DNA of 5,838 bases from a bacterium (lineage in GTDB: Bacteria; Spirochaetota; Spirochaetia; JABEVK01): positions 1-5,838 of the forward strand of contig JAJXVP010000177.1 of the NCBI GenBank assembly GCA_021782055.1, read 5' to 3'. A model generated the notes under the pieces. The model was not told where the DNA came from. It was given only the letters and a program-made list of their open reading frames with translations, and searched no databases. Made by a program: the position numbers and the translations under genes. Below are positions 1,616 to 5,537 of the stretch, one piece after another. How positions within the stretch are numbered: position 1 is the first letter of the stretch; every line of letters begins with the position of its first letter.

Positions 1616-2701
1616 TTATGGTTTCTGTAAGAGCTGGAAAAGTGCGTCGTTCAGGTAGAAGTTTTCTTTCCCGACTTTATGTTTGGACAAGAGCCCCAGC
1701 TCAACAAGATCGTCGAGATATTTCGAGGCTGTCTTTCGCGAAACCGACAGATCTCGAACCAGGTAGTCAATTTTCGTATAGGGATGCTGAAAGAGGTTGT
1801 TCAACAGCTCGTGGCTGTATAACTTCGGAACCTCAAGCTTGAGCCTCTGCTTGAACTCCTGAAAGAGCTTCTTGATGTCATGGATGAGGAGTGTGGTCTC
1901 TCGCGAAGTTTCTGCGACCCCTTCGAGGAGGTAGAGGAGCCAGGGCTCCCAGTTTTGCGTTTTCCGAACTTCTTGTAGAAGCCGGTAATATTCATTCTTC
2001 GAGCGATTGATGTAACGAGAAAGATAGAGAATGGGACTTCCCAAAAGCCCCTCTTTGACAAGGTAGAGGATATTGAGAACACGCCCCGTGCGGCCATTTC
2101 CGTCATAGAAGGGATGAATGCTCTCAAACTGGTGATGGATGAGGGCCATTTTGGTTAAAGGGTCCCAATCTGCAAGCTCGTTCCGGTTGAGGAACTCTTC
2201 GAGATGTCTCATGAGGAGGATGATGTCGTCGGGGTGCTGGGGTGGGGTATAAACCGTTTTACCTGTTGTCTCGTTCTTGAGTTCGGTTCCAGGCAACTTG
2301 CGGAACCCAGCTTGGTTCTCTTCAATGATCGATTGAATTTCAAGAATATCTCGTAGCGTGATGAGACCTGACGCCTTCACCTGCTCATGAGCCGTCTGAA
2401 GGGCTCGGGCGTAGTTATGGACTTCTTTTGCGGCTAACGTCTGGTAGCGCTGTTCAAAGCTGTCGGACTGGTAGAGGTCGTCCTGCGTCGTGATGATATT
2501 CTCGATGGCCGAGCTATCCTTTGCTTCCTGCAGAGAAAGGGTGCTGATGAGAATGCCCTGATTGGGCATTGTTTCTGCAGTAGCCTTAAGCTCGGCGAGG
2601 GCTTGGTGGGCCTTAGCCAGTTTTTTGAGTACCGCCTTAGTTTCGATATCCCCGACTTGTTCGAGTCGTTCAGGATAAAATGCTGTGGTTAGTTTTCCCA
2701 T
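1616..2701 (-). CDS. fic: Class II Fic-domain AMP-transferase with C-terminal winged helix
   Basis: A 361-residue protein of the SoFic-like group. The catalytic motif HPFYDGNGRTGR is complete at residues 196-207, with catalytic H196 and the N/GR residues that hold the nucleotide phosphates. The N-terminal part carries the inhibitory helix motif [S/T]xxxE[G/N] at S63-E67-N68 (SSAIEN), which defines self-inhibited class II Fic proteins. Residues 130-154 (GFRKLPGTEL...VYTPP) form the flap that positions the target. Near 305-355, YLVRDLSVSRKTASKYLDDLVELGLL reads as a winged helix-turn-helix. The enzyme most likely transfers AMP to a hydroxyl of a target protein; the target is unknown. ATG at 2701 has a moderate SD (GGGAAAGGGAT). 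It lies 74 bp downstream of the radical SAM gene and has its own promoter within a repeat array. The frames at 1801-2127 and 1609-1842 are shadows. Confidence 0.93.
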   Translation of the reverse strand: MGKLTTAFYPERLEQVGDIETKAVLKKLAKAHQALAELKATAETMPNQGILISTLSLQEAKDSSAIENIITTQDDLYQSDSFEQRYQTLAAKEVHNYARALQTAHEQVKASGLITLRDILEIQSIIEENQAGFRKLPGTELKNETTGKTVYTPPQHPDDIILLMRHLEEFLNRNELADWDPLTKMALIHHQFESIHPFYDGNGRTGRVLNILYLVKEGLLGSPILYLSRYINRSKNEYYRLLQEVRKTQNWEPWLLYLLEGVAETSRETTLLIHDIKKLFQEFKQRLKLEVPKLYSHELLNNLFQHPYTKIDYLVRDLSVSRKTASKYLDDLVELGLLSKHKVGKENFYLNDALFQLLQKP

Positions 2702-2713
2702 ATCCCTTTCCCC

Positions 2714-2803
2714 GTGGGTAAAAAAACAGAAAAGTTACCCCTATCTTAGCAGACGTGGGTAGAAAAGTCGATTTTTTACCCACGTTTTGAAGGAACTCGG
2801 GTA
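2714..2803. repeat. Array of five alternating GGGTA half-sites over the fic promoter
   Basis: GGGTA occurs on the plus strand at 2716-2720, 2757-2761 and 2799-2803, and as its complement TACCC at 2736-2740 and 2777-2781. Orientation strictly alternates and steps are 20, 21, 20 and 22 bp, about two helical turns each. Three copies extend to CGTGGGTA, and 2754-2785 contains perfect 9-bp arms (ACGTGGGTA / TACCCACGT). The rightmost half-sites lie in the 3' end of the radical SAM gene. It looks like a cooperative operator; the Fic protein's own winged helix is one candidate reader. Confidence 0.65.
2743..2771 (-). promoter_or_regulatory. Predicted fic promoter
   Basis: On the minus strand TCGACT (complement of 2766-2771) and TAAGAT (complement of 2743-2748) are exactly 17 bp apart. 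The predicted start, about 2736, gives a leader of some 35 nt. One GGGTA half-site lies in the spacer, one just upstream of the -35 and one at the start point, a geometry suited to repression. Confidence 0.5.
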
Positions 2804-3821: not shown

Positions 3822-4223
3822 TTACTTCCACAAGAGCTTCAGTCCATATTTCTTGAATTTTTCAAATTCTTCATCTTTCGAAATTATTGTCATATTTCTT
3901 TGAATGGATTGCCATATAAGCATTCTATCAAATGGATCAAAATGGCTGTCTTCTTCCAGTTTTGAATAACTTATTGATTCCTCAGGAGTCAAACTGATTA
4001 ATTCCATTCCCATTTTTTCAGCGTAGGGAATCAAATTTTCTATCTCTATGTTGCCCAAACTTAGCTTTTTAATTTTTGTTTTTATCGCAATTTCCCATAA
4101 GGAAACTGCACTTACATATATCTCATTATCTGGGTGAACTATCTTGGCTTTTGTATCTGTAGGTATTTTCTCAGACCCTGAAATTGACCACAAGAAGGTG
4201 TGTGTGTCCAAAAGATACTTCAT
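3822..4223 (-). CDS. vapC: VapC-type PIN-domain ribonuclease toxin
   Basis: A 133-residue PIN-domain protein, normal length for VapC. The metal-binding acidic residues are all present: D6 in LLDTHTFLW, E44 in AVSLWEIAIK, D96/D99 in HFDPFDRML, and D117 in IISKDEEF. PIN toxins of this DTHxxLW subgroup are Mg-dependent endoribonucleases that cut tRNA or rRNA; the target is not predictable. The ATG overlaps the TGA of the upstream antitoxin in an ATGA arrangement (4220-4223), implying coupled translation. Composition is visibly AT-richer than the Fic and AbiE genes, suggesting separate acquisition of the pair. No clear terminator follows, so transcription could continue into the radical SAM gene 122 bp further on. 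Confidence 0.95.
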   Translation of the reverse strand: MKYLLDTHTFLWSISGSEKIPTDTKAKIVHPDNEIYVSAVSLWEIAIKTKIKKLSLGNIEIENLIPYAEKMGMELISLTPEESISYSKLEEDSHFDPFDRMLIWQSIQRNMTIISKDEEFEKFKKYGLKLLWK

Positions 4224-4462
4224 CGCAAACTCAAGAATTCTTCCACTGTCATTTTGAAATCTTCAGAGAAGACTATTTCTGTTTTGCCATCAAGTATTCC
4301 AATTTTTCTTTCTTTTTTTGATGCTTCAGGTTCATACGGTACTATCATAGCAATAGGGGTTTTCTTTTTACCATAGAGAATCCCAAAACTTTCTCCATGC
4401 TTCACTTTTTCGAGAACTTCAGAAAATTGAGACTTAATTTCCCCTACAGGTAGAGATTTCAT
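4220..4462 (-). CDS. Phd/YefM-family antitoxin of the VapC toxin
   Basis: An 80-residue protein. Its N-terminal half, MKSLPVGEIKSQFSEVLEKV then KHGESFGILYGKKKTPIAMIVPYE, is a textbook Phd/YefM fold: strand, helix, and the K-K-x-P-x-A-x-I-V-P-Y strand. Residues 50-80, rich in charge and ending FKMTVEEFLSLR, would wrap around the toxin. Pairing of Phd-type antitoxins with PIN toxins is common in the DTHxxLW branch. It should neutralise VapC and repress the operon. The predicted -10 box ends 6 nt before ATG 4462, so the mRNA would begin at the start codon itself; the AAGGA next to the ATG is too close to act as a normal SD. The gene is AT-rich like its partner. Confidence 0.92.
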   Translation of the reverse strand: MKSLPVGEIKSQFSEVLEKVKHGESFGILYGKKKTPIAMIVPYEPEASKKERKIGILDGKTEIVFSEDFKMTVEEFLSLR

Positions 4463-4468
4463 ATCCTT

Positions 4469-4497
4469 AGTATAAGATGAGTCTTCTTATTTGTCTA
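4469..4497 (-). promoter_or_regulatory. Predicted vapBC promoter with overlapping palindrome
   Basis: On the minus strand TAGACA (complement of 4492-4497) and TATACT (complement of 4469-4474) are 17 bp apart. A second -35-like TTGACA lies at 4500-4505 but at 25 bp it is too far. An inverted repeat, ATAAGA / TCTTAT (4472-4477 and 4485-4490), covers the spacer and overlaps the -10, a plausible site for the Phd-type antitoxin. The predicted +1 is 4462, the first base of the antitoxin ATG. Confidence 0.62.
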
Positions 4498-4546
4498 CTT
4501 GTCAAGAAAATTGCTGTCAGAAAAATCGGCTTCCCGTGCTGAGTGC

Positions 4547-4711
4547 TCACTTTCTTAGATACCCGTTTTCTTGAATTAAGCGGCTTCCGCAGTGCGGACA
4601 ACCTTTAAGGAATACCCAAATCCGGTTGGTGACAGTAAAACTCTGACGACATTTCAAGCAGATGTAATAGTAGGGTGGCCCTTCGTGAAAGCCACTAGGC
4701 TTTGGTAACAT
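4547..4711 (-). CDS. Small zinc-ribbon protein (54 residues), function unknown
   Basis: A complete small gene read from ATG 4711 to TGA 4547-4549. The product contains two CxxC knuckles, C18-L-K-C21 and C38-P-H-C41-G, separated by 16 residues, the spacing of a rubredoxin-like zinc ribbon; the stretch YYYICLKCRQSF is aromatic and basic. Such ribbons bind zinc and usually contact nucleic acid or protein partners. I do not recognise a named family. Support that it is expressed: a strong promoter (TTGCAC, 17 bp, TATAGT) some 40 bp upstream and a GGGGGTG purine tract ending 4 nt before the ATG. It lies between VapBC and the IS relic on the same strand and need not be functionally linked to either. 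It is too short for usual length cut-offs. Confidence 0.75.
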   Translation of the reverse strand: MLPKPSGFHEGPPYYYICLKCRQSFTVTNRIWVFLKGCPHCGSRLIQENGYLRK

Positions 4712-4757
4712 AAAACACCCCCATTCAAAGCATTTGCCTCAACTTATCCGTCTTTTA

Positions 4758-4786
4758 ACTATAGTGCCCAGGATTCTATTGTGCAA
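4758..4786 (-). promoter_or_regulatory. Predicted promoter of the zinc-ribbon gene
   Basis: On the minus strand TTGCAC (complement of 4781-4786) and TATAGT (complement of 4758-4763) are exactly 17 bp apart, 5/6 matches to both consensus boxes. The start would be near 4751, leaving about a 40-nt leader that contains the GGGGGTG ribosome site. Confidence 0.6.
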
Positions 4787-4835
4787 ATCAGAATTTTTCC
4801 AGACCTGATGAACAGCCTCCGGCAACGGATTCAAC

Positions 4836-4897
4836 CTAAGCAGTCACGAAAAGTTTCATTCAAACCTCCCATTCCAAAGGGAATTTTAGAGGTTCCC
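4836..4897 (-). mobile_element. Decayed end of an IS5-like element, inverted relative to the copy at 5599
   Basis: Read on the minus strand this begins GGGAACCTCTAAAA (4897-4884), then TTCCCTTTGGAATGGGAGG, then ATGAAACTTTTCGTGACTGCT (4859-4839) followed by TAG. It is the same element end as 5599-5700 on the plus strand: the 14-bp tip and 5' coding sequence match. Differences: about 40 bp present at 5608-5647 are absent here, apparently lost between two TAAAA repeats, which removes the transposase promoter; codon 8 is TAG where the other copy has GAG, leaving MKLFVTA. Homology fades beyond about 4836. The tip lies directly against the mazF stop codon (4898-4900). GGGAA/TTCCC (4893-4897, 4879-4883) could form a weak hairpin after mazF. 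Confidence 0.85.
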
Positions 4898-5248
4898 TTA
4901 CGCGAATTTCCCCATTCCCATGAGAATTAAGATTCCGTTTTCAATTTCACCAAATGCTCTCTTGTTGATGCTGGAGATCTTTTCTACAAGCCTTGTTCGA
5001 TCGATGGAAGCAATCAATGAAGTCACCAGCACTGAGTCTTTCGTAAGGCCTGTCTCGGCTTTATCAAGTAAAACATTCCCAGGGGCCTCAGATAGATCAA
5101 GATTCGTGGAAAATGGAATAACAATCACTGTCTTCAGCCTGCTCTTATTGAAGTCGTTATTCTGAATTATTAGGGCAGGCCTTTTGAACCCATTTTCGCT
5201 TCCGTAGGGAATACTGAAGTCGACCCACCAAATTTCACCACGCGTCAT
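4898..5248 (-). CDS. mazF: MazF/PemK-family endoribonuclease toxin
   Basis: A 116-residue protein of normal MazF length. The N-terminus MTRGEIWWVDFSIPYGSENGFKRPALIIQNNDFN has the family signature: the GEIWWVDF strand, the G-S-E-x-x-x-x-RPALII motif with the catalytic arginine region, and the following NNDFN. LKTVIVIPFSTNL and DSVLVTSLIASIDRTRLVEKI give the remaining SH3-like barrel strands. MazF toxins cut single-stranded RNA at short sequences; specificity cannot be read from this. It overlaps the upstream antitoxin by 14 bp (5235-5248), and with only a weak distant SD its translation should depend on coupling. The TAA stop is immediately followed by the tip of the IS relic, but the protein appears full length, so the insertion seems not to have damaged it. 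The plus-strand frame at 4920-5165 is a shadow. Confidence 0.95.
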   Translation of the reverse strand: MTRGEIWWVDFSIPYGSENGFKRPALIIQNNDFNKSRLKTVIVIPFSTNLDLSEAPGNVLLDKAETGLTKDSVLVTSLIASIDRTRLVEKISSINKRAFGEIENGILILMGMGKFA

Positions 5249-5483
5249 TCTTAGTCATTTCCCTGATTGCTTCAATCGATGCATTTGTCAACTGATTGAA
5301 TTCGCTTTGGTCAATCTTTGAGTAAACACGATTCAATCGTTCTGTGATATTTTCCCGCTTATGTAACGAAATAAAGTCTTCCAAGGCTCGAGCGAAAAGC
5401 TGGCTTCTCGGAATTCCTAATTCATGAGCGGTCTTTTCGGCTTCTTCATAAAGCTTGTCAGGTAAAGAAATAGCAGTTTTCAT
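5235..5483 (-). CDS. Ribbon-helix-helix (CopG/MazE-like) antitoxin of MazF
   Basis: An 82-residue protein from ATG 5483. MKTAISLPDKLYEEAEKTAHELGIPRSQLFARALEDFI is a clear ribbon-helix-helix domain: the T-A-I-S-L-P strand that reads DNA in the major groove, a helix, the G-x-x-R-S-x-L-F turn and a second helix. Residues 45-82, ending IREMTKNDAW, are charged and would block MazF. It should also repress the operon. The frame is open upstream to 5525 (adding 14 residues), but that extension contains the entire predicted promoter, so 5483 is the start. The predicted transcript begins at the A of this ATG; there is no SD in the 6 bp between -10 and ATG. Confidence 0.93.
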   Translation of the reverse strand: MKTAISLPDKLYEEAEKTAHELGIPRSQLFARALEDFISLHKRENITERLNRVYSKIDQSEFNQLTNASIEAIREMTKNDAW

Positions 5484-5489
5484 AGAGTT

Positions 5490-5518
5490 AGTATGAATCG
5501 GGTATAACTGAATGTCAA
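5490..5518 (-). promoter_or_regulatory. Predicted mazE-mazF promoter
   Basis: On the minus strand TTGACA (complement of 5513-5518, perfect -35) and CATACT (complement of 5490-5495) are exactly 17 bp apart. The -10 ends at 5490, so position +1 falls on 5483, the antitoxin ATG. The spacer carries GTTATACC and the -10 lies next to TAAC, a loose dyad that could be the antitoxin's operator. Confidence 0.7.
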
Positions 5519-5537
5519 GAATCAACTCGCTCAGGAG

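Follow-up and report, generated by a model that had tools for sequence, protein, structure and literature searches.

A tandem-dyad array at the promoter of a predicted SoFic-type fic gene as a candidate operator read by the Fic protein itself

The window, i.e., the whole analysed stretch of 5,838 nucleotides, harbors an array of GGGTA half-sites upstream of a fic gene. The best explanation of this array is that it is the operator of fic and that Fic itself recognizes it, a reading to which a probability of roughly 0.8 may be assigned from sequence comparisons. The spelling of the half-sites was found to covary with residues of the recognition helix of Fic; hence, Fic itself very probably binds the array directly. 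To our knowledge, the control of class II Fic proteins is poorly understood.

All coordinates are positions in the whole window, and fic is transcribed on the (−) strand. The GGGTA sites were located at 2716 (+), 2736 (−), 2757 (+), 2777 (−), and 2799 (+), with start-to-start steps of 20, 21, 20, and 22 bp, in agreement with the first-pass annotation, which had described five copies of alternating orientation with a 20–22 bp period and had considered them unlikely by chance. When the window was shuffled 5000 times with its dinucleotide composition preserved, alternating GGGTA chains (18–24 bp steps) never had more than two members, as compared to five in the window itself. When any 5-mer was allowed, an alternating chain of four was obtained in 7 of 1000 shuffles and a chain of five in none. 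The five alternating half-sites are thus confirmed as real and far above chance. Four of them form the inner parts of two 31-bp dyads, each of the form GGGTA-N15-TACCC, the centres of which are 41 bp apart (Table 1). The outer half of dyad B is degenerate on the fic strand (TAGGGGTA). The array was also said to extend into the end of the radical-SAM gene, and the outer 9 bp of dyad A together with the fifth site were indeed found there.

Table 1. Features of the fic locus (window positions) and defence-type ORFs following downstream arrays in related loci.
Feature	Location	Strand	Remark
Dyad A (distal candidate operator), CGTGGGTAGAAAAGTCGATTTTTTACCCACG	2754..2784	−	Sequence; conserved in L001–L004
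Ends of dyad A on the fic strand, CGTGGGTA...TACCCACG, 31 bp	2754..2784	−	
Dyad B (proximal candidate operator), CGTGGGTAAAAAAACAGAAAAGTTACCCCTA, 31 bp	2713..2743	−	Sequence; conserved in L001–L004
Fifth GGGTA	2799..2803	.	In radical-SAM coding end; window only, not in L001–L004
Inferred −35, TCGACT, centre of dyad A	2766..2771	−	Alignment of five promoters
Inferred −10, TAAGAT, between the dyads	2743..2748	−	Alignment of five promoters
fic, predicted SoFic-type AMPylase, 361 aa	1616..2701	−	Pfam Fic_N, Fic, SoFic-like_C
SoFic-like C-terminal domain, residues 279–354, winged helix in model	1640..1867	−	Pfam; structure model
Recognition helix 322–334, residue 321 just ahead	1700..1741	−	DSSP of model
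Residue 321 codon	1739–1741	−	Predicts half-site spelling
Residue 323 codon	1733–1735	−	Predicts half-site spelling
HsdS after array	L007, L011, L013, L014, L020, L027, L028		
HsdR after array	L032, L034, L039		
YhcG after array	L006, L009		
Type ISP after array	L042		
Type III-like, second ORF after array	L061		
NERD after array	L010		

A strict sigma-70 scan of positions 2600–2900 found no promoter. Guided by the relatives, a putative fic promoter could be placed at TCGACT-17 bp-TAAGAT, and the matching place in L001–L004 carries a −10 of TATGAT or TATAAT. The first-pass annotation had the array covering the −35, spacer, +1, and leader; this holds for the elements placed by comparison, which the dyads cover.

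Relatives were taken as the best 80 of 429 from a scan of genome contigs, the first set comprising 81 loci. The closest among these best 80, L001–L004, share 78–85% Fic identity and come from metagenome-assembled genomes titled Spirochaetales or Spirochaetota. Both dyads were present at the same ATG-relative positions in the window and in all four, with half-sites starting at −80, −60, −39, and −19; L002 and L004 each had a single half-site that departed from GGGTA by one base. The 84 bp before the ATG showed 74–86% identity to the window, and the next 150 bp further upstream just 24–31%; the flanks of L001 and L002 were 41% identical to each other. Besides its occurrence at fic, the pattern TGGGTA-N13..17-TACCCA was present at a single further position in the host genomes of these four (G001:C94, N13), and a reversed control pattern gave no match in the same genomes. 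A megablast of the window against plasmid records returned no match. GGGTA dyads, the conservation of which upstream of close fic homologues had been proposed as a check, are conserved in these four relatives. The five-copy array stood in part: four of its sites are conserved in L001–L004, while the fifth was absent from all of them and is probably a coincidence.

The Fic_N, Fic, and SoFic-like_C domains of the window protein all scored above the Pfam cut-offs, and the PADLOC SoFic model matched with an E value of 1.3e-117. Against the NCBIfam SoFic equivalog NF046030, the protein scored 377.4 bits with a curated cut-off of 550, which makes it a relative of the family and not an NF046030 equivalog. 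The Fic motif HPFx[D/E]GNGRxxR is present as HPFYDGNGRTGR. The protein also matches, with S63-xxx-E67-N68, what we take to be the class II inhibitory motif, [S/T]xxxE[G/N], and S63, E67, and N68 were invariant across 33 sequences. The best sequence and fold matches were SoFic of Shewanella oneidensis and EcSofic (PDB 3eqx, 3zcn, and 9vjc); the SoFic PDB entries 9tb0, 9tc4, 9tch, and 9tcl were not among the fold-search matches. A structure model from the 33-sequence alignment reached a mean pLDDT of 82.8, as against 38 for single-sequence prediction. The gene product is hence predicted, from sequence and model, to be an AMPylase of the SoFic type. It would end in a winged helix, as had been noted earlier, a feature on which the Pfam match and the model agree. 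The window is rich in toxin–antitoxin genes at 1–1575 and 3822–5525; the neighbors include AbiEi/AbiEii (AbiEii being cut by the window end), Phd/YefM with ParE, a PIN toxin, and a PemK/MazF toxin. Sofic systems with an AS1 antitoxin carry it as a small ORF just downstream (47 aa in E. coli). In the window, the fic stop (1616) and the end of a convergent ParE-type gene (1575) lie ∼40 bp apart, as judged by ORF positions.

The presence of arrays in the wider SoFic family was evaluated with an unsupervised score for four alternating 8-mers, for which no word was supplied. A score of at least 19 was observed in 30 of the 81 upstream regions of the first set; shuffles gave means of ∼15 to 18, with single values up to 21 in the most AT-rich region. 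When whole loci were scanned, many others proved to have an array right behind the fic stop codon. Of the 81 loci, 22 scored at least 22 near fic, and two (L043 and L075) did so at a distance from the gene; among 405 shuffled loci a score of 20 was found in 17, 21 in 4, and 22 in 1. A dyad model, CRTG-abc-A followed by an A-tract, was then applied at a score of at least 13; it was shaped on the first-set loci themselves, and a scan at score 11 was not used, since every locus had such a dyad and the threshold was too lax. With this model, 69 of 81 first-set loci carried a dyad within 250 bp of fic, and 119 dyads were found in 44.5 kb near fic vs. 15 in 707 kb elsewhere, the shuffled control giving 16 in 752 kb. 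Two sets not used for the model, set B (18 plasmid loci and one viral) and set C (29 Spirochaetota loci), showed the same enrichment, with 17 dyads in 10.6 kb near fic vs. 2 in 66 kb elsewhere and 34 in 16.2 kb vs. 7 in 94 kb, respectively. Within 300 bp of fic, dyads were present in 101 of 129 SoFic-family loci (69/81, 11/19, and 21/29), and the spacing of successive dyads was 39.5–42 bp in 45 of 47 first-set pairs. No dyad at a score of at least 13 was found in the other 28 of 129 loci, which include most proteins with the helix ERKAASRY. Near fic, five Spirochaetota loci of this subgroup (L121–L124 and L126) lacked a clear array of any known type, and the subgroup may read another word or lack an operator. 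A scan of viral contigs gave one relative (L081), without a dyad.

In 39 of the 69 first-set loci, the best dyad lay downstream of fic, a position incompatible with a simple operator role at the upstream fic promoter. Among these 39, two had no ORF before the contig end, and 15 of the other 37 had a restriction-modification or nuclease ORF after the array (Table 1); the rest had another kind of gene or no family, or were outside the search. The notion that fic genes within restriction-modification operons are free of arrays was rejected, as many carry them downstream. The role of such downstream arrays may be regulation of the following gene, storage of the protein, or adjustment of its activity. 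Some of them, in L006, L008, and L028, mix code types, L028 having GGGTA-type beside CAC-type dyads; such mixtures may be remnants of a switch in specificity or may serve a relative. Several individual neighborhoods were also recorded. In L015 (3625–5529), the downstream array is followed by a gyrB homologue, and GyrB is an AMPylation target of Fic-1 according to the available text of PMC13327609. In two Pseudomonas loci, L036 (3527–9422) and L029 (4912–9512), fic adjoins cas3 of a type I-F CRISPR-Cas locus, lying between csy1 and cas3 in L036, and is preceded by two diverged I-F-like repeats. In Acinetobacter, CreTA modules occupy the equivalent place (PMC10097628, available part), and a CRISPR-repressed AMPylase toxin at these two loci is conceivable. 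One similar repeat-like palindrome is present just upstream of fic in Pseudomonas jinjuensis (L018, 4921).

The downstream arrays bear on an alternative in which the bound DNA mainly controls Fic activity, holding the enzyme in an inactive or deAMPylating state, so that the array would serve as a DNA antitoxin or parking site. Arrays are kept where no fic promoter is overlapped, and, from the portions available of the two papers, a role beyond transcription appears possible, since EcSofic loses its toxicity without the C-terminal domain (PMC12249575) and the activity of CbFic2 of Coxiella burnetii is altered by DNA (PMC10628234). However, CbFic2 is only distantly related to the window Fic, the one or two dyads present in a cell would capture few molecules, and in the window and L001–L004 the dyads sit exactly on the putative promoter. 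This alternative is considered unlikely, and an operator read by Fic remains the preferred reading.

The identity of the half-site triplet, abc, tracks residue 323 of Fic, aided by residue 321: K is paired with GGT, Q with TTA, N with CAC, I or L with TAT, and P mostly with TAA. Majority words were assigned over 85 loci, of which five were tied and 16 plasmid loci were labelled by hand, and the word agreed with residue 323 in 78. By class, the words were GGT 13 and CGT 1 for K323, TTA 15 and TCG 3 for Q323, CAC 17 and TAC 1 for N323, TAT 28 and TCT 1 for I/L/V323, and TAA 5 and AAA 1 for P323. P was the weakest class, with TAA in 5 of 6 by majority labels and in 2 of 4 at a score of at least 13. 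Among 361 alignment columns, residue 323 was the best single predictor of the word, with a symmetric uncertainty of 0.88 (69 loci) or 0.82 (101 loci), followed by residue 321 (0.56 and 0.48, respectively). The word entropy of 2.80 bits fell to 0.54 given residue 323 and to 0.25 given both residues, a last figure that small groups flatter.

For the held-out sets, a table for K, Q, N, I/L, and P was frozen beforehand. In set B, 18 of the 19 loci had a table residue and 15 of these a dyad of score at least 12; the predicted word was found in at least one half of the best dyad in 12 of the 15 and in both halves in 8. The misses, L103–L105, have H or K at residue 321 and the word TCG. In set C, 22 of the 29 loci had a table residue and 18 of these a dyad, and the best dyad followed the one-residue code in just 9 of the 18. 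The misses comprised five [HK]RQ loci, every one TCG; L118, with TAT in the best dyad and TTA in two more; L122 and L123, both ERK; and L129. Of loci with V323, which is outside the frozen table, L116 reads TAA and L101 reads TAT. Pooled at a score of at least 13, [STVI]RQ was associated with TTA in 17 of 17 loci and [HK]RQ with TCG in 7 of 7; this rule on residue 321 was stated after seeing the data and accounts for most held-out misses. The simpler proposal that residue 323 alone sets the code was weakened by the 9 of 18 in set C and by L116, and residue 321 is needed as well.

Whether the covariation merely reflects shared ancestry was examined in near-identical proteins. Over residues 19–285, L007 (Q/TTA) and L013 (N/CAC) are 95.1% identical, L011 (K/GGT) and L013 (N/CAC) 94.8%, L019 (Q/TTA) and L028 (N/CAC) 94.4%, and L008 (K/GGT) and L028 (N/CAC) 94.0%; as judged from these sequences, near-identical proteins have switched helix and half-site together. 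On a tree of the same residues, the helix class changed at least 24 times and the word 29 times, and in tree-independent pairs the two never moved in opposite ways. For Q, 6 pairs moved in the same way, 0 in the opposite way, and 2 were unchanged (p = 0.03), the other classes having too few independent pairs. Within-cluster shuffling of words (20000 shuffles) was carried out on the 62 of 69 loci kept after removal of near-duplicates. In clusters of at least 80% identity, 18 of 19 loci were on code, against a shuffle mean of 5.3, and none of the 20000 shuffles was as high; at 85%, all 12 of 12 were on code (2/20000 as high), and at 90%, all 9 of 9 (17/20000 as high).

Promoter dyads are commonly read by separate repressors, and a host or mobile-element protein might read the array with fic as its mere target, the reader having been assigned from sequence. 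A separate reader would not be expected to have its word follow residues 321 and 323 of Fic across phyla and in near-identical proteins, nor its array to accompany fic in unrelated neighborhoods, and this explanation is quite improbable. The idea, put forward in the first-pass annotation, that the array is recognized by the C-terminal winged helix of Fic thus gains support from the conservation of the dyads in L001–L004 and from the covariation of their spelling with residue 323.

A model can be proposed in which the two C-terminal winged helices of a Fic dimer would contact the two half-sites of a single 31-bp dyad, ∼20 bp or two helical turns apart, and a second dimer would occupy the second dyad, 41 bp or about four turns away on the same face of the DNA. 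Together, both dimers would cover the −35, −10, +1, and leader and would hold toxin expression at a low level until Fic becomes scarce, is titrated, or is altered. We infer from these data the physical binding, the dimer stoichiometry, and the cooperativity. As the dyads cover the putative −35, spacer, −10 flank, start, and leader, binding should repress, and by analogy with CccR, Fic would be a repressor of its own promoter. Repression is argued from geometry, so that a Fic protein that binds the array and activates or switches the promoter may be envisaged; this is very improbable, since an overlap of dyads with the −35, −10 flank, and predicted start is the usual layout for repression and CccR, the related case, represses in the available account (PMC9755527). 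A role of the dyads as hairpins in the leader or 3′ RNA is scarcely credible: judged from sequence, the palindromes of several downstream dyads are near-perfect and might fold as RNA, but dyad A overlaps the putative −35 and would be untranscribed from that promoter, and RNA pairing leaves the link between spelling and recognition helix unexplained.

A broader picture may be offered tentatively, as possible though doubtful. SoFic proteins would be toxins in which a two-residue code specifies the DNA address that each recognizes as its own, and arrays at the promoter or directly after fic, in restriction-modification operons, would let one AMPylase restrain itself on DNA while also controlling the defence genes that follow (hsdS, hsdR, or the YhcG nuclease). 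Lost occupancy at infection would free toxin and restriction together, and fast diversification of the code would avoid cross-regulation among copies in one cell. The present analysis suggests that these defence enzymes regulate themselves directly and may steer neighboring restriction genes. An operator and a simple recognition code read from sequence alone provide cheap and exact predictions of the DNA expected to be bound by each SoFic protein. DNA specificity appears to change via one or two residues while the remainder of the protein stays nearly constant, which offers natural matched protein–DNA pairs for the study of how repressor specificity evolves.

The first-pass annotation knew of no described operator of this form for Fic proteins. 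This claim stands for sequence and layout only, as a Fic-HTH operator has been described for CccR of Yersinia pseudotuberculosis, a class II Fic protein with a C-terminal HTH that, in the available part of the paper, binds as an obligatory dimer to a palindrome near the −35/−10 of its own promoter and represses it, its HTH helices being ∼70 Å apart (PMC9755527). Among the literature matches listed, which leave most subscription papers outside, no SoFic operator, tandem-dyad array, or code was described; novelty is hence provisional, with the tandem-dyad array and the recognition code as the new elements and CccR as the one Fic-HTH operator known before. In sequence and model, the window locus shares with CccR an AMPylase-type Fic with a C-terminal HTH and inverted repeats over its own putative promoter. 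The CccR operator is one palindrome, AGATAATCAT-N26-ATGATAATCT, whereas the window has tandem GGGTA-N15-TACCC dyads with a 41-bp period, and the CccR word with its N26 spacer was not found in the window dyads. The same available text gives a low similarity of CccR to SO_4266 (29% over 45% coverage) and describes CccR as a secreted T6SS effector (PMC9755527). SoFic of S. oneidensis and EcSofic have the same domain order as the window Fic; EcSofic is an anti-phage toxin of E. coli in the text available (PMC12249575), and no operator or DNA binding was described for either protein in the portions of the literature examined. CbFic2 is likewise a Fic enzyme with a C-terminal HTH that binds DNA, and DNA promotes its dimer formation and changes its activity; the available sections used arbitrary DNA, discussed non-specific binding, and named no operator (PMC10628234). 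Control of a defence toxin locus through inverted repeats and cooperative binding is also found in the AbiEi operators of type IV toxin–antitoxin systems, in which, according to the accessible text, a separate antitoxin binds (PMC7319586), whereas in the window the predicted DNA-binding domain lies inside the toxin.
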